From: Paludibacteraceae bacterium
GTDB taxonomy: Bacteria; Bacteroidota; Bacteroidia; Bacteroidales; Paludibacteraceae
Assembly (NCBI GenBank): GCA_024405875.1
Contig: JAKSOA010000002.1
Coordinates: forward strand, 80,250 to 144,249
Direction: 5' to 3'
Length of the DNA stretch: 64,000 nt
In this document: positions 40,715 through 64,000 of the stretch, piece after piece
How the letters are laid out: every line of letters starts with the position of its first letter
Position numbering within the stretch: position 1 is the first letter of the stretch
Notes under the pieces: model-generated
The model's database searches: none
What the model was told of the DNA's origin: nothing
Seen by the model: the letters and a program-made list of their open reading frames with translations, nothing else
Position numbers and translations under genes: made by a program

Positions 40715-40825
40715 TATAAATAGTGAATAGTTCCTCCCTTGTTACGTCTTTGCTTCGCAAATCCGTGATTAAAGGCTTCGGCTCACCATAATAAACCAAG
40801 GTTTCTTCTGGGTTCGCCTCGCACT

Positions 40826-43009
40826 TTAATTTCCCATTTCAGAAATAAACTTCAGCCTAACCAGACGTATGTCCGCCTCTGTTATGTCTCCGCCAAGTTC
40901 GGTCATTGCGTCACTTATGCTGTCGTGGGGAGCGGTACGCAGGTAGTCATAGATATCAGCCGCTATATCGGGGTCCATATCGTCCTCAATCATATAACTT
41001 ATGTTAATCTTGGTGCCTGAGTTGACTATGGCCTCAAGTTCATCAAGCAGTTCATCAAGTTCAAGGCTCTTTGAAGTGGCTATATCCTCAAGGCTTACAC
41101 GGCGGTCAATAAGATGAATTATGTCAATCTTCTGCTGTGACTGCTTTGCCGTTGTGCGGACGCGCATATCAATAGGCCGCTCTATCTCATTCTCATCAAC
41201 GTGTCTCTTTATGAGTTCCACAAACTCCTTACCATAACGCTGTGCCTTGCCCGCTCCTACTCCGGGAATGTTTTGCAGTTCCTCAATGGTGATAGGATAG
41301 GTTGTTGCCATTGCCTCAAGAGATGGGTCTGAGAATATTATGTAAGGTGGCAGTTCCTTATGCAGGGCAATCTTCTTCCGCAAATCCTTAAGCATAGTGT
41401 ATAGCACCTCATCGGCGGCACCGGAGCCACCGCTACGGCTTGTTTGAACCACCTCATCTTCCTCATCATACTCATTATCCTTAATAATCATAAAGGTGGT
41501 AGGATTTGTCAGGAACGCTCTTCCGCTCTCCGTAACCTTAAGCAGTCCGTAGTTCTCTATCTCCTTGTCAATGAACTTTGCTATCATTCCCTGGCGTATG
41601 ACCGCTTTCCATACGCACTCACTCTCCTTCTCCCCGATGCCATACTGTTCCAAATCATCGTGGTGATAGGCTTTGACGGTGGAGGTGTCCTTACCCATAA
41701 TAACATCAATTATGTGGTCTGCCTTGAACTTCTCCTTTACGGCAATAATAGTCTCTAATACTGTGCACAGAAGGTCTTGACCGTCAATCTGTTTTTTAGG
41801 GTTGAGGCAGTTGTCACAGTTGCCGCAGTTATCCTCTCCATATTCCTCTCCAAAGTAGTGGAGCAATAGTTTGCGGCGGCAGATGTTTGACTCTGCATAG
41901 GCGGCTGTCTCAGCAATCAGTTGCTTGCCAATCTCCTGCTCAGAAACGGGTTTGCCTTGCATAAACTTCTCAAGTTTCTCAAGGTCTTTGTCAGAGTAGA
42001 AGGCTATGCACTGACCCTCACCACCATCTCTACCGGCTCTGCCCGTCTCCTGATAGTAGCCCTCAAGGCTTTTAGGCATATCATAGTGTATTACAAAGCG
42101 GACGTCGGGCTTGTCAATACCCATACCAAAGGCTATGGTTGCAACTATAACCTGAATCCTCTCCATAAGGAAGTCATCTTGGTTCTTAGTGCGCTCCGCT
42201 GAGTCCATACCAGCGTGATACGCCATAGCGTTTATTCCGTTCACTCTCAGTGTCTCTGCCAAATCCTCCACTTTCTTACGGCTCAGGCAGTAGATTATAC
42301 CCGATTTGCCCTCTTGTGCTTTCAGGAATTTTATAATGTCACGGTCAATGTTCTGGGTCTTAGGGCGTACCTCATAGTAGAGGTTGGGGCGGTTGAATGA
42401 TGACTTGAAGACTGTGGCGTTGTTCATTACCAATGTCTTCTGAATATCGTGCTGTACCTTTGGTGTGGCTGTAGCCGTGAGGGCTATTACAGGTGCCTCC
42501 CCAATCTGTTGTATTATAGGGCGTATGCGGCGGTACTCAGGGCGGAAATCGTGCCCCCACTCTGATATACAGTGTGCCTCATCTACCGCATAGAATGATA
42601 TTTTAATACCTCTTAAGAAATTTATGTTCTCCTCCTTTGTCAGTGACTCCGGTGCCACATATAGAAGTTTTGTCTTGCCGCTCTTCACATCTCTCTTCAC
42701 CTCATCTATGGCTGTTTTAGTAAGTGATGAGTTAATGAAGTGCGCCACTCCGTCCTCTTCAGAGAATGAACGCATTGCGTCCACCTGATTCTTCATAAGT
42801 GCTATGAGGGGTGAGATGACAATAGCCATACCCTCCATAAGGAGTGACGGCAGTTGGTAACATAATGACTTGCCTCCGCCTGTGGGCATAAGTACAAAGG
42901 TATCCTTCCCAGCCAACAGGTTCTCTATTATCGCCTCCTGATTGCCTTTGAAGGCGTCAAACCCGAAGTGTAGTTTTAAAGCGTCAAGTAAAAAAGTGTT
43001 TTTAGCCAT
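40826..43009 (-). CDS. recQ: ATP-dependent DNA helicase RecQ
   Basis: 727 residues. Helicase motifs: Walker A MPTGGGKSLCYQLP near 39, the DEAH box AVDEAHCISEWGHDFRPEYR near 138, and the C-terminal helicase motif QETGRAGRDGGEGQ near 322. A zinc-binding cysteine set follows (CRRKLLLHYFGEEYGEDNCGNCDNC), then RQC and HRDC domains (SLEAMATTYPITIEELQNIPGVGAGKAQRYG). It unwinds recombination and replication intermediates. It lies four bases after clpX in the tig-clpP-clpX-recQ order usual in Bacteroidetes. Confidence 0.96.
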   Translation of the reverse strand: MAKNTFLLDALKLHFGFDAFKGNQEAIIENLLAGKDTFVLMPTGGGKSLCYQLPSLLMEGMAIVISPLIALMKNQVDAMRSFSEEDGVAHFINSSLTKTAIDEVKRDVKSGKTKLLYVAPESLTKEENINFLRGIKISFYAVDEAHCISEWGHDFRPEYRRIRPIIQQIGEAPVIALTATATPKVQHDIQKTLVMNNATVFKSSFNRPNLYYEVRPKTQNIDRDIIKFLKAQEGKSGIIYCLSRKKVEDLAETLRVNGINAMAYHAGMDSAERTKNQDDFLMERIQVIVATIAFGMGIDKPDVRFVIHYDMPKSLEGYYQETGRAGRDGGEGQCIAFYSDKDLEKLEKFMQGKPVSEQEIGKQLIAETAAYAESNICRRKLLLHYFGEEYGEDNCGNCDNCLNPKKQIDGQDLLCTVLETIIAVKEKFKADHIIDVIMGKDTSTVKAYHHDDLEQYGIGEKESECVWKAVIRQGMIAKFIDKEIENYGLLKVTESGRAFLTNPTTFMIIKDNEYDEEDEVVQTSRSGGSGAADEVLYTMLKDLRKKIALHKELPPYIIFSDPSLEAMATTYPITIEELQNIPGVGAGKAQRYGKEFVELIKRHVDENEIERPIDMRVRTTAKQSQQKIDIIHLIDRRVSLEDIATSKSLELDELLDELEAIVNSGTKINISYMIEDDMDPDIAADIYDYLRTAPHDSISDAMTELGGDITEADIRLVRLKFISEMGN

Positions 43010-47180: not shown

Positions 47181-48293
47181 TTAATAAGCGGGTGCCTCAC
47201 GCTTTCTATTTGCTTCCGTCAAATCAAGTTGCAGTTGCTGGTCTGATAGGTTTCTGTGATTGGTATATACTGTGGCTGACACTCCTTTGTCCCGTTTATT
47301 AAGCATCATAAATACCTTTCTGTCTATGTAGTTATCTATCAATACAATTCTTTTTTGAGCAGATTCTATCAGAGTGCACAGAAAATCGTATGCCTTAAAG
47401 TTTTCTCCCTCATAAAAAACCATCTCAATAGGTGGGAGTTTTGTGTCAACAATAAGTTCTACTTTTTGCTCAAGAGATTTTATCCTATTTGTATTGTCTG
47501 ATATGGTTTGTTCCATTTTATCAATGCGTGAATCATAGTAGTGCCTATGCAAAAGTATCCCTTTTAGTACGTTTGTAGCCCATTGACGGAAAGCAATTCC
47601 ATTTTTAGTGTTTACCCTATATCCTACAGAGATAATCATATCTAAATTGTAGATGGAAATCTTTCTTGTTACATACTTTCCTCCTTCTGTTTGAACTTGT
47701 TCCAAAATGGAACAAGTTTGATTTTTATCCAGCTCTCCAACCTCATAAATATTACTGATGTGTTTGGAAATCGCTTGTCTTTTTGTACCAAAAAGCAGTG
47801 ACATTTGCTCCTGCGTAAGCCATACGGTTTCATTCTCCACCCGCACATCAATTTTTAGATTTTCATTAGGCTGATATAGCACTACAGTGCCTTCATTCCA
47901 CGATTCTGGTAGCATCTCCACCTCTGCAACTTCCTCTTCAAACTTAATTGGGATGCTGCGTTTCAGTACCTTTTCAAGCATTGAGACACCCTCCGCCGTA
48001 AAAGCGAAAGGCAGGTATCTTGACCCACCTCTTCCACTCGTTTTTGAGATTACAATTTGTAATAACAAACACTCTTCTTCACTTAATTTGAACCACATTT
48101 CAGTGTCAAAAAGTTGTATGTTCCTTTTGACATATAAGTTCAAATTACCAGTGCTCATTCCCACGTATGCCGCCACTTCACGGTCCAGCACCACACGTTT
48201 CCCACGCACATTACACACTTGAGGCTTGGACACAGAGTCCGCCTCGTTCACCCGCCCATCCACAAGGGCGGCGTTAAAACCAGATTTGTCCAT
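47181..48293 (-). CDS. ORF6N/RhuM-family protein, copy 1, C-terminus frameshifted
   Basis: 370 residues. About residues 25-110 form an ORF6N-like DNA-binding domain (NVRGKRVVLDREVAAYVGMSTGNLNLYVKRN). A linker (LPESWNEGTVVLYQPNEN) leads to a RhuM domain (VWLTQEQMSLLFGTKRQAISKHI...ISVGYRVNTKNGIAFRQWA), then a partial C-terminal module (KRIVLIDNYIDRKVFMMLNKRDKGV). Past residue ~365 the frame shifts: another frame continues RHPLIKMLEIKNDHDRFLR and then stops, matching the intact HDRFLI region of copy 2 at 58 kb. The N-terminal third is close to copy 2 at DNA level, while the RhuM core is different. The function is unproven. RhuM proteins are often linked to mobile or defence loci. Confidence 0.75.
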   Translation of the reverse strand: MDKSGFNAALVDGRVNEADSVSKPQVCNVRGKRVVLDREVAAYVGMSTGNLNLYVKRNIQLFDTEMWFKLSEEECLLLQIVISKTSGRGGSRYLPFAFTAEGVSMLEKVLKRSIPIKFEEEVAEVEMLPESWNEGTVVLYQPNENLKIDVRVENETVWLTQEQMSLLFGTKRQAISKHISNIYEVGELDKNQTCSILEQVQTEGGKYVTRKISIYNLDMIISVGYRVNTKNGIAFRQWATNVLKGILLHRHYYDSRIDKMEQTISDNTNRIKSLEQKVELIVDTKLPPIEMVFYEGENFKAYDFLCTLIESAQKRIVLIDNYIDRKVFMMLNKRDKGVSATVYTNHRNLSDQQLQLDLTEANRKREAPAY

Positions 48294-48430: not shown

Positions 48431-48925
48431 TTGTTGCCGTACCGACTACAAAAGTGTTGTAATTAAAAAATAATTCGTATATTGCACCCGTTATATAGTC
48501 CCGTGGAGGGCGAATTTGAGTTAATACACTAATAATTAGTGTGTTGCATTTTTGGGGTATATACCCCGATGTCTAAAATTTTAGACCTCTGTTGCCGTAT
48601 TCGCAACAAAAATGTAGCGTTTTTTGAAATTTTAACATTTTTTAACATTTCTAGTGCCGAGCGCACAATCTGCAGAGCAGATTGATATTTTTTCAGCGTG
48701 TGCTGATAAAATAAATTTTAAAAAGCACACGCCGAAAAAATAAAAAATCAGGTTTCCCTGATTTTGCCGAGGCACGACGAAATCTCACAAAGTTTTGTAA
48801 AACAAAACTTTGTAACAAACCTATCTCTAAATCCGCTTTGCGGATTTAGGCTTAAAGACCCAGCAACGCTGGTGTCTGATAACAAACCAATCTCTCCTAC
48901 GGCTTGCCGTAGGAGGCTTAAAGAA
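48431..48925 (+). ncRNA. Modular hairpin-array RNA/leader element, copy A
   Basis: This 690-base gap holds no gene. It matches 60591-61035 in order and partly in sequence. It begins with a promoter-like TTG-N18-TATATTGC (48457-48485), then shared blocks TATAGTCCCGTGGAGGG, CACTAATaATTAGTG and GGGGTATATACCCC. A chain of hairpins follows: CAATCTGC/GCAGATTG (48666-48684), a 19-base-armed stem (48686-48704 with 48724-48742), AAAATCAGG/CCTGATTTT (48744-48765), ACAAAGTTTTG/CAAAACTTTGT (~48787-48812), AAATCCG/CGGATTT (~48829-48847), CCAGC/GCTGG (48860-48872) and CTCCTACGG/CCGTAGGAG (~48894-48915). Linkers AACAAACCwATCT and GGCTTAAAG recur between hairpins. It lies upstream of a secreted-protein operon, so it may be a leader or a separate RNA. 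Confidence 0.6.
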
Positions 48926-58029: not shown

Positions 58030-59238
58030 CTACCCGTTCATAACTATGTTCAGTATCACTTCTGGCTCTAATCCCATCTTTTCAAAATAGAAAAGTTTTT
58101 TGCCTGCATCTTTAAAAGACCCACCCGATGAGTACAGTACATTGTCTGTAATCAGGAACCTATCGTGTATGCCGCTTATGGGCAGAACATCTATGACGGC
58201 ATTGGGGTATTGGGTGTTATATTTCTGTAGGTCAAGTTTAAAGGCTTCGTGGTTACAACACTTGTTGCTGGTGTAAATTATACCTTTTACGCCTTTGGAA
58301 CGCTTAGAGAGTAGTGCTAACACTGATGAGTCCACATAGTTATCTATTATAATAACCCTCTGTTTAGCACCGCTTATAAGTTCAGAGAACAACTGATGAG
58401 CGTCAAAGAACTGCCCCTGCATAAAAATCTGCTCCTTGGGTGGGAGTGAGGTCTTTACAAAGAAATCTATTTGTTCCTCTGTTTTAGTAACCCTGTTTTC
58501 CAATCTTTCAAATCTTTTGGTTATGGAATTGTGATACAAAACATTTTCTTTTAGAACTTTGTTTGCCCAACGCCTGAATGCAATGCCGTTGTTTGACTTA
58601 ACTCTGTACCCAACGGATAAAACCACATCCAAATTATAGTACTCAATATACCTTGTAACCTTCCTGTCTCCTTCAATTTGAACTGTCGCAAAATTTGCGA
58701 CAGTTGGGATGTTTTGCAGTTCTTCCAGCATAGAATTATTGATATGTTTGCTTATAGTTTTTATATCTCTGTCAAACAAAATTGCTATCTGATTTCTGCT
58801 CAGCCAAACATTTTCATCTGTAACTTTGACTTCTAAATTTACTGGACAATTATCGGGCTGATACAGCACTACAGTACCTTCATTCCACGATTCTGGTAGC
58901 ACTTCAGCATCAAGTACTTCCTCTTCAAACTCAATAGGGATACTCCTTTTCAGCACCTTTTCAAGCATTGAAACACCCTCCTCCGTAAAGACGAAAGGCA
59001 GGTACTTTATGTTGCTTCCTCTCCCTTTGTTCAAGGTTACAATTTGTAATCTTGAACACTCATTTTCACTTAATTTGAACCACATTTCATCGTCAAAAAG
59101 TTGTATGTTCCTTTTGACATATAAGTTCAAATTACCAGTGCTCATACCCACGTATGCCGCCACCTCACGGTCCAGCACCACACGCTTTCCACGCACGTTA
59201 AACACTTGAGGCATAGGAGTAGAGCCTACTTCTTTCAC
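58030..59238 (-). CDS. ORF6N/RhuM-family protein, copy 2, intact C-terminal module
   Basis: 402 residues with the same order as the 47-kb copy: ORF6N domain (VRGKRVVLDREVAAYVGMSTGNLNLYVKRN), linker (LPESWNEGTVVLYQPDN), RhuM domain (VWLSRNQIAILFDRDIKTISKHINN...LSVGYRVKSNNGIAFRRWA), then a complete C-terminal module (KQRVIIIDNYVDSSVLALLSKRSKGV...IHDRFLITDNVLYSSGGSFKDAGKKLF) that resembles half of a phospholipase-D-type fold. The first ~140 residues are almost the same as copy 1, down to DNA, whereas the RhuM part differs. The start is uncertain: GTG at 59238 or ATG at 59214, since the ATG used by copy 1 is not preserved. Function unknown. Confidence 0.78.
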   Translation of the reverse strand: MKEVGSTPMPQVFNVRGKRVVLDREVAAYVGMSTGNLNLYVKRNIQLFDDEMWFKLSENECSRLQIVTLNKGRGSNIKYLPFVFTEEGVSMLEKVLKRSIPIEFEEEVLDAEVLPESWNEGTVVLYQPDNCPVNLEVKVTDENVWLSRNQIAILFDRDIKTISKHINNSMLEELQNIPTVANFATVQIEGDRKVTRYIEYYNLDVVLSVGYRVKSNNGIAFRRWANKVLKENVLYHNSITKRFERLENRVTKTEEQIDFFVKTSLPPKEQIFMQGQFFDAHQLFSELISGAKQRVIIIDNYVDSSVLALLSKRSKGVKGIIYTSNKCCNHEAFKLDLQKYNTQYPNAVIDVLPISGIHDRFLITDNVLYSSGGSFKDAGKKLFYFEKMGLEPEVILNIVMNG

Positions 59239-59568: not shown

Positions 59569-60489
59569 ATGGAGACACAGAGAGAAAAAGAGAAGGGGAG
59601 TTTGTACATAAACCCCGTCACAGATTTCGGGTTCAAGTACATATTCTCAGATGACGGGATAATGATACCGTTCATAGAGGATGTTTTGGGAGTTAAGATA
59701 AGTCAGTTGACATACCTCAGCAGTGAGGATTTGGGTCAGACACCAGATGAGAAGAAGGTAATCTATGACCTTCTGTGCAAGGACAGTGAAGGTAATGAGT
59801 TCATAGTAGAGATGCAGAACGGAGACCAGGTCTTCTTCTCGGACCGAATAGTCTATTACCTGTCAAAGCGAGTCTCGGCACAGTTGAAGAGCGGAGAGAA
59901 CTCACGGTGGCAGTACGGACTAACCCCTGTGTACGGAATATTTGTGCTGAACTTCCATTTGCACGGAATGAGGGCGTCGGCAGTCCGCACAATCCGCCTT
60001 AAGGTTGAGGAGACAGGAGAGGTGTTCAACCCTAACGTAACGGCGTTTACCCTTGAGTTGCCCGATTACAGGAAGAAGAGAGACATAGATTGTAAGACAA
60101 AGACAGAAACTTGGTTATATAACATAGCAAATATGGAAAAGATGACAGGAGATTTGGCATTCAAAGACCGCCAGCCTGCGTTCATACGGTTGCAGGAGAA
60201 GGCGAAGCGAGGTAATCTCACTCCCAAGGAGGAGATTGAGTATGAGAGCAGTCTGAAGGCACACCTTGACTACAACGCCTGTCTGCACTTCGCTCAGGTA
60301 AACGGAATGGAGATAGGTAAGGCTCAGGGAATGGAGATAGGTAAGGCTCAGGGAATGGAGATAGGAATAGCAGAAGGACGAGCAGAAGGCAAACTGAGCG
60401 TTGCAAGAAAGATGAAACTCAAAGGTCTTGACCTAGCGTTGATTTCAGAAGTTACTGGTCTCAGCACTGAGGAAATAAGCAAACTCTGA
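59569..60489 (+). CDS. Rpn/PD-(D/E)XK nuclease family protein (transposase_31-like)
   Basis: 306 residues. The N-terminus SLYINPVTDFGFKYIF and YDLLCKDSEGNEFIVEMQ (D...E-x-Q) give the PD-(D/E)XK active-site pattern of the Rpn family. DRIVYYLSKRVSAQLKSGE and LTPVYGIFVLNFHL are family blocks. Rpn nucleases cut DNA and promote RecA-independent exchange; many Bacteroidetes carry numerous copies. The C-terminus has 8-residue repeats (GMEIGKAQ, two full plus a partial) followed by a short three-helix tail. It has its own promoter and terminator. Confidence 0.85.
   Translation: METQREKEKGSLYINPVTDFGFKYIFSDDGIMIPFIEDVLGVKISQLTYLSSEDLGQTPDEKKVIYDLLCKDSEGNEFIVEMQNGDQVFFSDRIVYYLSKRVSAQLKSGENSRWQYGLTPVYGIFVLNFHLHGMRASAVRTIRLKVEETGEVFNPNVTAFTLELPDYRKKRDIDCKTKTETWLYNIANMEKMTGDLAFKDRQPAFIRLQEKAKRGNLTPKEEIEYESSLKAHLDYNACLHFAQVNGMEIGKAQGMEIGKAQGMEIGIAEGRAEGKLSVARKMKLKGLDLALISEVTGLSTEEISKL
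60304..60375 (+). repeat. 24-base in-frame tandem repeats in the nuclease gene
   Basis: Identical 24-base units start at 60304 and 60328, with a partial third at 60352, each encoding GMEIGKAQ. Copy-number change would stay in frame. Confidence 0.85.
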
Positions 60490-60565: not shown

Positions 60566-60590
60566 TGTGTTTGCTCCTCTGTTGCTTTGC

Positions 60591-61035
60591 TGTTGCCATA
60601 TACACTACAAAAGTGTAGAATTAGAAAAATAATTTGTATATTGCACTCGTAATATAGTCCCGTGGAGGGTATTTTGAGTTAATGCACTATGAATTAGTGT
60701 GTTACCTTTTTGGGGTATATACCCCGATGTCTAAAAATTTAGACAACTGTTGCCCTATACACCACAAAAATGTAGTTAATAATAAGTATTTTAACAAATT
60801 TTAACATTTGACCAAATTTTTTAACATTTCTAGCGAGAAGAGCAAAAACTGCGGAGCAGTTTTAAAAAGTTTTTTTAAGGGACCATACGGAATTTATTCC
60901 AGTAGGGTCACGTAAAAAAAACTTTAAAATCAGGTTCACCTGATTTTGCCTTCGAGCGACGAAATCTCATCAGACCCAGCAACGCTGGTGTCTGATAACA
61001 AACCTATCTGCCCTCAGGCGATAGACTGAGGGTGA
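60591..61035 (+). ncRNA. Modular hairpin-array RNA/leader element, copy B
   Basis: Counterpart of 48431-48925. The TATATTGC promoter-like box is at 60637-60644, then the shared TATAGTCCCGTGGAGGG, GGGGTATATACCCC and TCTAAAAATTTAGA blocks. Hairpins: AAAACTGC/GCAGTTTT (60845-60863), a long stem AAAGTTTTTTT/AAAAAAACTTT (60866-60876 with 60915-60925) enclosing smaller stems, AAAATCAGG/CCTGATTTT (60926-60947), CCAGC/GCTGG (60976-60988) and CCCTCAG/CTGAGGG (~61011-61032). Against copy A the first stem has two compensatory base-pair changes. The long and the last stems are entirely different in sequence but still pair. It has fewer modules than copy A. Confidence 0.6.
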
Positions 61036-61435
61036 ATAAATAAAAATAATAACAACAAACCAAACCATAACGCTTATGAAGAACTAACAAAACCAAACAA
61101 ACAAACAAAACAAAAATTACTTAATACTTTTAGAAACCTTTAAAACCATTTATGAAACACCTGACCGTGTAGTTGGAATAACGGCTAATAGCAACACCAC
61201 ACAATAAGAAAGAATCACGTAATAGGCACATAATCCTATTGACATAGGTCATCCATCTTTGACCTACGTTGTCGTCTATTAGCACCCGTTCCACCACGCC
61301 AGCGTTTCCCCCTGACAAAACTAGCGTATATTTCGTCATTACCTGACGGTCTGTAAACATTCTGAGCGTCCCGCCCGTCATTCTGAGCGAAGCGAAGAAT
61401 CTTTAAATGCCATAGGTAAAAGAAAAAACAAGAAT
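61036..61435. other. Non-coding stretch before the NTPase gene
   Basis: No gene seen. It holds an AAC-rich low-complexity run (CAAACAAACAAACAAAAC near 61095), a partial and then a full 26-base dispersed repeat (61377-61402), and then the NTPase start 34 bases further on. No convincing TAnnTTTG promoter; TACTTTTA near 61125 is the nearest. Confidence 0.6.
61377..61402. repeat. Dispersed GTCATTCTGAGCGAAGCGAA repeat
   Basis: A full 26-base copy, preceded by a partial ATTCTGAGCGTC copy at about 61359. Confidence 0.85.
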
Positions 61436-64000
61436 ATGAGTGAGCCAATAAGATTTTACAAAGGAGAAGAGACCGGAATAGTTCACGAGAACTACCACGA
61501 TATCAGCACATCCCTATTCAAAGACCAATACCTTAAGGCTTTGGATGAGATAGGGGCGTACTTGTCTTATTATAAGACTATTGATGAGGTTAATAATGAA
61601 TCTGACGATGAAGAAGATGAAGAGCAGATAACCAGGCAAAACAAAAGCAAGAAACAGCCTCAGCATATAGAATTAAATAACATCTTTGCCTTTATAGGAG
61701 AGAGAGGAACAGGAAAAACCTCTTGTATGAAATCTGTGGCAGATATGCTTTACCAGTACAGAAAGAGTACAAATAAGAATGGTTGTGAGAAATTCCTGAA
61801 AATAGACCCGATAGACCCAACCACCTTCAATGATAACACCAACCTGATGCAAGTAGTAATAGGTGTTATGTTTGAAAAGTTCAAGGATAAGGTTGCAAAT
61901 TCAGATAATTTGCCGAACAATGCAGACAGAGATACGTATGAAAAGAACAAACAGAATCTGTTAAAGGCATTCCAGGATGTTAAGGAGTGCATAAAATACA
62001 TAAGCAATCCTAAACTTCTTAACTGTGAGGATGACGATATTTCTCAATTGGCAGGAATGGCATCAGTCTCAAAACTGAATGATAAAATAGGAAAACTTGC
62101 CGATAAATACCTTGAGTTCTTTGACAAAAACATATTGGTGCTACAGATAGACGATATAGACCTACAGACCAAGTATGCCTACCAAATGGTGGAAGAGATA
62201 CGTAAGTACTTTATGCACAAAAATATAATAGTACTTATGGCAGTAAAGATGGAGCAACTTGCCAAGGTCATAGAGAATGAGACTGCCAAACAGTACGAGC
62301 CATTAAAGAAATTAGAAGGCATAACACTACCGGAAATCTCAGATATGGCAATACGGTATCTACTTAAGTTGATACCTATCGACCATCGAATCTTCATGCC
62401 TTCATTTAAGGTATACAGCAACAAACAATTGCAATATTTTGAAAATAGAAATGACAAAACTTACATTGATAGGTGGATGTCAATGAAATATGCTGTGACC
62501 ACATTAATATACAAGAAATGTAGATTTTTGTTCTATCATGCAAAAGGAGAGGTAAGTCCAATTGTTCCTACAAATTTAAGAGAATTTAGACATCTGTTTG
62601 CTACGCTATATAGCATGAAAGATTACTATCCAGGGGAAGAAATTAATGATTATAAATATAGAGAAGCGAACAAATCTCAATTCTTGAATTATCTAAATGG
62701 CATGTGGGTGAGCAACAATATAGATGCCAGTGACTATAAAATAGTAGATAGTATTTTAAATATCAGAGATGCGGCTTCCATTAACAAGACGGTTTTGCAA
62801 TTGCTTAAATCAAAGTTTGAAACAACTCTTTTTAAAGATGAGAGAACATACATAGAAGAAAGAGCTGGGAATAGAATAATGCGTCGTGTTAGAGAGATTA
62901 AAAGGAATATTTTCTCAGAAATATTAAGTGATAAGAATGCTAAGTATAATGTATCATTAGGGGATGTTTATGTTGTGCTGGACTACATAAAGAAAAGAAT
63001 TAATAGTTTGGGAGATAGAATGTTAATATTTTTTATTGAGACATATTACTCTATAAAACTATATGAGTATTATGATGAGATTACTACAGCTAATGAGCAA
63101 GATGATAGTATAGAGGAAGATTTTGAAAGGATTGTTGATGAAAATATAAGAAAAAGAGAAGTTGTAGATAATAGGAGTAATTATGAGGTTTTAGTTGGAG
63201 GAACATTTATTAATACTGACTACTATTCATTAATGCCATTAGAGCAGCAAACACAAGAATTTAGAGATAGAAGAAAAATATCATTTAACCTATTAAAAGA
63301 ATATGCCAATGATGTGGTGACTTCTAAATTAGATGATAATGTTATAAAAAAGATGCAACTTGTCGAGTTCTTTGCTTTATGCATTTCAAATGTAGTCGAT
63401 GCTGATGACAATGTGAACAAGTCATATAGAGAATATAATGTGTTGTATTATGATTTTCCCCCATCAAGAAGAAATGACTATGTTCAATTTGATTTAGGCT
63501 CGTTTTTCTTTAATATTGCAAATGTGCATAAAGCATATGACAGAATAGATCCTTTGTTATGGAAGAAGTCCTTAAGTTGTAACAAATCTTTAATGATGCA
63601 GCTAGGACTTGAATGTTTAAATTATAGATACAAACAGCCGTTATGGCATGCATTACTCTCTTGTGTATGTATACGAAATTACGAAGTATTAGACGATTTT
63701 GTTAATGCAATACAGTATACAAAATTCATGAGATCTCAAACTAAATCAAATGTTGGAAATTTTATTGATTTTTTCAATTTAGTTTCAACATATAGCATAA
63801 GAACATATGATAAGCATCCAGATTATGAATATAATCTTGGATTATTTAAGGATAAAGCAGATGGAGTGCATCGAATGATTCCTGATGTTACAAAGGAACC
63901 AGATCTATTAGAAAAAATTGAAGCAGAAGAAAGATTTGATGCAGACACATTGGCACAGGCATTAAAAGTTCCGTATACAATCTCATTTAAATATGCAAAG
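61436..64000 (+). CDS. Large P-loop NTPase, C-terminus beyond the window
   Basis: Open from ATG 61436 to the window end, at least 855 codons with no stop. Walker A is G88-ERGTGKTS, in NNIFAFIGERGTGKTSCMKS. A Walker B-like ILVLQIDDIDL lies at 233-243, followed by IIVLMAVKMEQL (sensor-like). An acidic Asp/Glu linker (ESDDEEDEEQ) sits at about 55-64. After about residue 330 no known domain is recognised; it is mainly helical, with charged KxxR stretches. The combination (GExGTGKT with IDDxD) is that of KAP/STAND-like ATPases, frequent in phage-defence loci. The coding style becomes visibly more A+T-rich after ~62.4 kb than in the housekeeping genes, which hints at transfer. The partner genes are outside the window. 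Confidence 0.7.
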   Translation, partial: MSEPIRFYKGEETGIVHENYHDISTSLFKDQYLKALDEIGAYLSYYKTIDEVNNESDDEEDEEQITRQNKSKKQPQHIELNNIFAFIGERGTGKTSCMKSVADMLYQYRKSTNKNGCEKFLKIDPIDPTTFNDNTNLMQVVIGVMFEKFKDKVANSDNLPNNADRDTYEKNKQNLLKAFQDVKECIKYISNPKLLNCEDDDISQLAGMASVSKLNDKIGKLADKYLEFFDKNILVLQIDDIDLQTKYAYQMVEEIRKYFMHKNIIVLMAVKMEQLAKVIENETAKQYEPLKKLEGITLPEISDMAIRYLLKLIPIDHRIFMPSFKVYSNKQLQYFENRNDKTYIDRWMSMKYAVTTLIYKKCRFLFYHAKGEVSPIVPTNLREFRHLFATLYSMKDYYPGEEINDYKYREANKSQFLNYLNGMWVSNNIDASDYKIVDSILNIRDAASINKTVLQLLKSKFETTLFKDERTYIEERAGNRIMRRVREIKRNIFSEILSDKNAKYNVSLGDVYVVLDYIKKRINSLGDRMLIFFIETYYSIKLYEYYDEITTANEQDDSIEEDFERIVDENIRKREVVDNRSNYEVLVGGTFINTDYYSLMPLEQQTQEFRDRRKISFNLLKEYANDVVTSKLDDNVIKKMQLVEFFALCISNVVDADDNVNKSYREYNVLYYDFPPSRRNDYVQFDLGSFFFNIANVHKAYDRIDPLLWKKSLSCNKSLMMQLGLECLNYRYKQPLWHALLSCVCIRNYEVLDDFVNAIQYTKFMRSQTKSNVGNFIDFFNLVSTYSIRTYDKHPDYEYNLGLFKDKADGVHRMIPDVTKEPDLLEKIEAEERFDADTLAQALKVPYTISFKYAK

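Follow-up and report, generated by a model that had tools for sequence, protein, structure and literature searches.

A strand-specific palindromic DNA repeat of the Bacteroidales, probably mobile, with short and three-hairpin long forms

Two hairpin arrays in the window, a term that here means the whole 64,000-nucleotide stretch of Paludibacteraceae DNA that was analysed, appear to represent the long form of a palindromic DNA repeat that is strand-specific, REP/MITE-like and probably mobile, and that is dispersed in the Bacteroidales. We give this reading roughly two chances in three (0.68), and an RNA function of the repeat is possible. The arrays, copy A (48431-48925) and copy B (60590-61036), match one another and lie where an earlier note on this DNA had placed them. 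That note regarded them as a two-copy element, but they turn out to be two of 13 strong long copies, which are accompanied by hundreds of short ones. A mobile hairpin cassette, which was among the several options that it listed, is supported. The features of the window are given below, where R1 denotes a covariance model of the junction built from four copies (A, B, L007 and L012), and R2 a model of the short form.

48478..48487, + strand: promoter-like box TATATTGCAC of copy A, identical in A, B, L007 and L012
48488..48646, + strand: leader of copy A with TTAACATTT repeats, conserved, and found whole or in part without the junction in L005, L008, L009, L013 and L015
48647..48787, + strand: long form, copy A, with outer stem ATTTC/GAAAT, tandem-G.A stem and three hairpins (from the fold, covariation and R1, 152.4 bits, copy A being among the four sequences used to build R1)
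48666..48684, + strand: hairpin 1 of copy A, CAATCTGC-AGA-GCAGATTG
48686..48742, + strand: hairpin 2 of copy A, long, unlike other long copies in sequence
48744..48765, + strand: hairpin 3 of copy A, AAAATCAGG-TTTC-CCTGATTTT
48787..48923, + strand: hairpin array of copy A, two units (hairpins 48787-48813, 48827-48849, 48857-48876 and 48894-48915)
48814-48826 and 48881-48893, + strand: array linker AACAAACCwATCT of copy A
48849-48857 and 48915-48923, + strand: array linker GGCTTAAAG of copy A
60637..60646, + strand: promoter-like box TATATTGCAC of copy B
60647..60825, + strand: conserved leader of copy B
60826..60969, + strand: long form, copy B (from the fold and R1, 142.1 bits, copy B likewise being among the four sequences used to build R1)
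60845..60863, + strand: hairpin 1 of copy B, AAAACTGC-GGA-GCAGTTTT
60864..60924, + strand: hairpin 2 of copy B, with tip GGAATTTATTCC
60927..60946, + strand: hairpin 3 of copy B, AAATCAGG-TTCA-CCTGATTT
60970..61032, + strand: hairpin array of copy B, one unit (hairpins 60970-60995 and 61011-61032; linker 60997-61009)
40767..40827, - strand: third copy in the window, short form (R2 42.7 bits, E 2e-10)

Alignment and folding of A and B bear out the order and the box that they were said to share, as well as stems that differ and yet still pair. Both copies harbor, in order, a promoter-like box, a leader, a closed stem junction and a hairpin array, and the best alignment block between them covers about 360-380 bp at 75% identity. 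The leader is about 160-180 nt long, with TTAACATTT repeats at its 3' end. The junction combines three hairpins with two further stems, an outer one and a second that contains a tandem G.A step; the stem AATCAGG..CCTGATT and the outer stem are parts of this one closed structure. As had been claimed, the first hairpin stem differs by two compensatory changes (CAATCTGC/GCAGATTG at 48666-48684 against AAAACTGC/GCAGTTTT at 60845-60863), and folding of both copies confirms that pairing is kept in the long second stem and in the last stem despite their different sequences. The array unit is hairpin-TAACAAACCwATCT-hairpin, present twice in A and once in B, and the extra modules noticed in A amount to one additional two-hairpin unit. 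The description of constant linkers holds for AACAAACCwATCT, which is found at 48814 and 48881 in A and at 60997 in B, but not for GGCTTAAAG, which occurs twice in A and is lacking in B. When folded as RNA, A (48492-48925) and B (60651-61035) give z scores of -11.0 and -7.6, respectively, with none of 100 shuffles as stable in either case. The junction folded alone as DNA gives -9.9 and -9.7 for the two strands of A, and -7.5 and -7.1 for those of B.

Two more full arrangements are found in the related genome G002, where L007 precedes an NTPase gene and L012 precedes secreted-protein genes. All four leader copies (A, B, L007 and L012) are preceded by the same box, TATATTGCAC, which we take to resemble the -7 box of the Bacteroidales. 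Among the loci examined, the array linker AACAAACCnATCT is confined to these same four. In the five loci that carry the leader whole or in part without the junction, the genes that follow look by eye like those for secreted proteins, NTPases or MBL-fold-like proteins, which would fit a single type of leader serving a regulon. One of these loci, L013, is by eye continuous where A carries the insert. Because the repeat in A and B is located downstream of a promoter-like box, in the leader of several operons (secreted proteins; NTPase), its transcription as a structured 5' leader would be expected, and any effect of the leader on expression would be a side effect or a secondary use.

The genes around these copies can also be described. 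ORF6N/RhuM genes lie upstream of both A (47181-48293, - strand) and B (58030-59238, - strand) and match the PADLOC candidate family PDC-S05; two tandem relatives lie upstream of L007 in G002. A PDDEXK_2 gene (PD-(D/E)XK nuclease family transposase; 59569-60489, + strand) is found between the RhuM gene and copy B. The region 61436-64000 (+ strand) encodes a large AAA-type NTPase that falls under the Pfam cut-off and weakly matches PDC-M01A, a PADLOC candidate. Both L007 and L009 are followed by relatives with 48-49% identity, the NTPases of G000, the genome of the window, and G002 being 49% identical.

The repeat exists in two forms that have an outer stem and a core in common. The long form contains three hairpins, whereas the short form, of about 61-62 nt, contains one, within the core GAGnGCA-hairpin-TGCCGAG. 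The R1 search returned nine further strong long copies, giving the 13 in three genomes of the genus, and also many matches of about 61 nt. With R2, at least 644 short-form matches (E <= 0.01; up to 150 candidates scored per genome, hence the lower bound) were found in 14 of the 16 genomes of the window's genus. Matches extend to 109 of 358 genomes and 27 of 33 genera in the family, and to 91 of 393 genomes and 57 of 207 genera in a sample of the order Bacteroidales. In some genomes short copies are found in tandem, 73-76 bp apart. The third copy in the window (40767-40827) has a RecQ-like helicase gene on one side and a GtrA-like gene on the other, and is followed by a GAA-triloop hairpin. In general the repeat is a dispersed, small, multicopy palindrome that is mostly intergenic, with 12 of 81 copies placed inside an ORF by a simple ORF caller. 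A literature search found no published description that matches this Bacteroidales repeat family.

When searched as a DNA pattern, the long form was found in nine genome stretches, eight of which are in two Paludibacteraceae MAGs from horse faeces, and in none of the viral contigs. A single long-form match outside the Paludibacteraceae, Blautia L307, was rejected, as the rest of the element is absent there. The short-form pattern occurs in 28 viral-contig stretches, 19 of which have an R2 match at E <= 0.001, while the remaining nine look like chance matches; plasmid and phage records gave no match to one viral-contig copy used as the query. No common gene was seen beside 19 single-copy loci in other families. 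Several single-copy loci of other families are found within what appear, by eye, to be conjugative-element genes. The junctions L021, L023 and L019 (in G004, G006 and G010, respectively) also look three-hairpinned by eye, with unrelated stem sequences.

The alternative that survives best, although we consider it unlikely, is that which the earlier note had put first: an undescribed structured RNA, acting as a 5' leader riboregulator in which a four-stem junction and a hairpin array control the downstream operons. The box upstream of all four leader copies and the very stable RNA folds of A and B are in keeping with such an RNA, as is the covariation, which proved to be strong in both forms when the larger alignment proposed as a check was made. 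In the short form (69 distinct sequences), 93.0% of cells are paired and 18 of 19 pairs have two-sided changes; in the long form (13 sequences), the corresponding values are 92.6% and 31 of 44. Neither the paired percentage nor the count of two-sided pairs was equaled in any of 500 shuffles, and one shuffle matched the short form's count of pair types; these figures are biased towards the models to which the alignments were fitted. Both the covariation and the exchange of modules between copies are real, but the same signal is yielded by a palindromic DNA repeat, so that covariation alone is no argument for RNA in this case.

A helix made of RNA should accept G.U but not A.C, and the numbers of these two mispairings can therefore be compared. 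In the short form G.U outnumbers A.C by 63 to 23 if one fixed G.U pair (41 cells) is counted in; once this pair is excluded the two are about equal, at 22 to 23 over all cells and at 11 to 11 when only cells flanked by pairs are counted, which counts against an RNA. The long form has 14 G.U and 8 A.C over all cells, seven of the eight A.C being at one pair. With two pairs excluded and neighbors paired, the long-form numbers become 7 and 1, a ratio that favors an RNA; four long-form G.U cells are found at one pair. The G.U share is 1.9% in the short form (fixed pair out), 2.7% in the long form and 8.7% in 16 tRNAs, a control in which the G.U share alone is usable, since ARAGORN may mark standard pairs only and its zero A.C is uninformative. 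As the copies share ancestry, neither these pair counts nor the loop counts given below are independent. Overall, this comparison argues for a DNA fold in the short form and leaves the long form unsettled.

The loops are of DNA type, which again weighs against a structured RNA (GNA loops and tandem G.A pairs are also found in RNA). Among 68 distinct copies the tip of the core is T(TT)A in 41 and C(TT)G in 15. In the 100 nt downstream, 32 C(GNA)G triloops were observed against 0.26 expected from mononucleotide shuffles and a background of 0.76. One triloop of the mirror type was seen, such that the GNA hairpins are strand-specific; eight GNA hairpins are present in the upstream 100 nt. DNA mini-hairpins with GNA loops are described as extraordinarily stable (PMC4686876).

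Orientation bears on the structured RNA in both directions. Of 81 copies, 56 point in the same direction as the gene downstream of them (p 0.0008), a bias in keeping with such an RNA; where both flanking genes are on the same strand, 32 of 50 do so (p 0.06). These counts carry the proviso that the ORFs come from a simple script and that some neighbors may be wrong. However, 25 of the 81 are antisense, and the hundreds of copies lie in both orientations before unrelated genes. Rfam is also silent, in agreement with the earlier statement that no named family could be recognized: a search of A and B, by gathering score and with E up to 1, gave nothing credible, the output for A being ten weak matches far under the cut-off (eight miRNA families, one Vg1_ribozyme and one Avalong_thermometer) and that for B being empty. 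By the criteria that the earlier note had set, neither this outcome nor the covariation refutes a structured RNA. Palindromic candidate structured RNAs of about 80-130 nt, such as HMP2_4078, mostly from Bacteroidetes and some near phage genes, feature in a published survey (PMC8040213); by that description they are similar in being palindromic and from Bacteroidetes, and could belong to this family or to another. It is the copy number, the two gene orientations, the DNA-type loops and the lack of a short-form excess of G.U over A.C outside the one fixed pair that displace structured RNA as the lead reading.

A further feature that would suit a structured RNA is that, in 11 of 98 copies examined, the 3' arm of a hairpin following the repeat contains the ATG of the next gene; the pattern used for this count missed at least one more copy, L231. 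Seven of the 11 belong to the nine long copies located outside the leader, and they terminate precisely at the start codon of one of five genes, with hairpin arms that differ by paired changes. This suggests a role in RNA or translation, and no other observation favors a translational role as much. The genes concerned include rpmH, porG and dapB (named by eye). In some copies the loop of the long form's start-codon hairpin holds GGAGG, and the CATAAA of the long form has two possible pairing partners, the 5' TTTATG of the element and the TTTATG of the start codon. From this it is conceivable, if rather improbable, that the long form is a mobile hairpin targeting start codons, which would make it a translation switch able to transpose and to carry structured leaders, already assembled, through a genome.

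The DNA-repeat reading draws on differences between related genomes. The site upstream of rpmH shows presence and absence of the type known for MITEs: among the 15 genomes compared (G014 gave no rpmH) three are filled, with the long form in G002 and G003 and the short form in G010, and in the other 12 no copy was found by model or by eye. In G000 a long copy (L291) lies one gene upstream of rpmH, at the start of a STAS-like gene, a position without a strong copy in L289 (G002) and L292 (G003). Short and long forms also occur at the same gene in the case of MKNKY.., where G000 has the short form and G002 the long. At porG both G002 and G003 carry the long form, but the hairpin 2 types differ and the start-codon hairpin contains a paired change. 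Two junctions before different operons in G002 are 95% identical, while junctions across genomes are 68-70% identical; since A and B of G000 are only 68% identical, as across genomes, the copies there have not been homogenized, and recent spread or conversion is visible in G002 alone. The outer arms pair but vary in sequence, ATG is found on both sides at start-codon sites, and no transposase was identified. We propose that the repeat may spread, or be copied, as a folded single DNA strand through an enzyme acting in trans, and that recombination or template switching between copies could swap hairpins and restore complementarity.

A sub-case of this explanation would name the enzyme, making the repeat the REP of a RAYT (TnpA-REP) of the atypical Bacteroidetes subclass 2.6 kind; we regard it as doubtful. 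Some observations point this way. The tetranucleotide directly before the core is GTAG in many copies and GCAG in others, although GATTAAG and CAAGCC are also found and it is not constant. A copy at L128 lies about 900 bp from a RAYT and Bro-N gene pair, and one at L204 lies directly 3' of a RAYT-like ORF. In addition, atypical structures alongside subclass 2.6 genes have been reported (PMC6006769). Nevertheless, no RAYT was found in the draft genomes G000, G002, G003 and G008 (completeness 79-95%). Across 393 genomes, with one RAYT query, the repeat is present in 91, a RAYT in 159 and both in 35 (odds ratio 0.90, p 0.72), and one of 30 RAYT loci, namely the query's own, has a repeat copy within about 1.5 kb. 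As a general mobilizer RAYT was rejected, its presence being independent of the repeat and its loci rarely holding a copy. The RAYT of G006 is, moreover, flanked by a different repeat: at L225 the RAYT-like gene is beside a RhuM-like gene, with GGGACGCACG..CGTGCGTCC around and inside. A Y1_Tnp match is present in 16 of 36 genomes that were chosen for their many repeat copies. One result points partly the other way: among 30 Y1_Tnp loci the repeat gave a clear match in L182 and L186 and a weak one in L188 (E 0.64), and of three further loci in this test L204 and L207 have a repeat match and L206 does not.

That one leader was simply duplicated as a segment and then drifted is very improbable. 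The 79% identity of the A and B leaders favors such a duplication, which may hold for promoter and leader, but the junction contradicts it: nine of the 13 long copies lack both the box in the 300 nt upstream and TTAACATTT repeats directly before them, and the stems differ by paired changes.

Among known systems, the repeat resembles REPs and REPtrons in being a small, strand-specific, imperfect palindrome with very short loops, found in many copies that are mostly intergenic, either singly or in tandem groups, and often preceded by GTAG at the core. In contrast to these, which have a constant GTAG/GTGG tetranucleotide at the foot, its GTAG is inconstant, it has as a rule no linked RAYT (L128 and L204 being the exceptions), and it possesses a tandem-G.A outer stem, a second hairpin with a GNA loop and a three-hairpin long form. 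Elements of the MITE type, among them ERIC, NEMIS and BrickBuilt, are dispersed and non-coding, have inverted ends, fold when single-stranded and can be transcribed. The present repeat is likewise dispersed, non-coding and able to fold from inverted ends, but no transposase with matching ends was found and its ends vary by paired changes. The BOX elements of Streptococcus pneumoniae are modular repeats in which the number of internal modules varies. By description the modularity and variable module number are similar, whereas the present repeat swaps entire hairpins, with the linkers between them constant.

These copies provide a case in which covariation that looks like that of RNA probably stems from a DNA repeat. 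The comparison of G.U with A.C, the type of loop and the strand are simple tests that could be used on other candidate structured RNAs. For the Bacteroidales, the analysis characterizes a widespread repeat, the long form of which exchanges whole hairpins and is often located on start codons.
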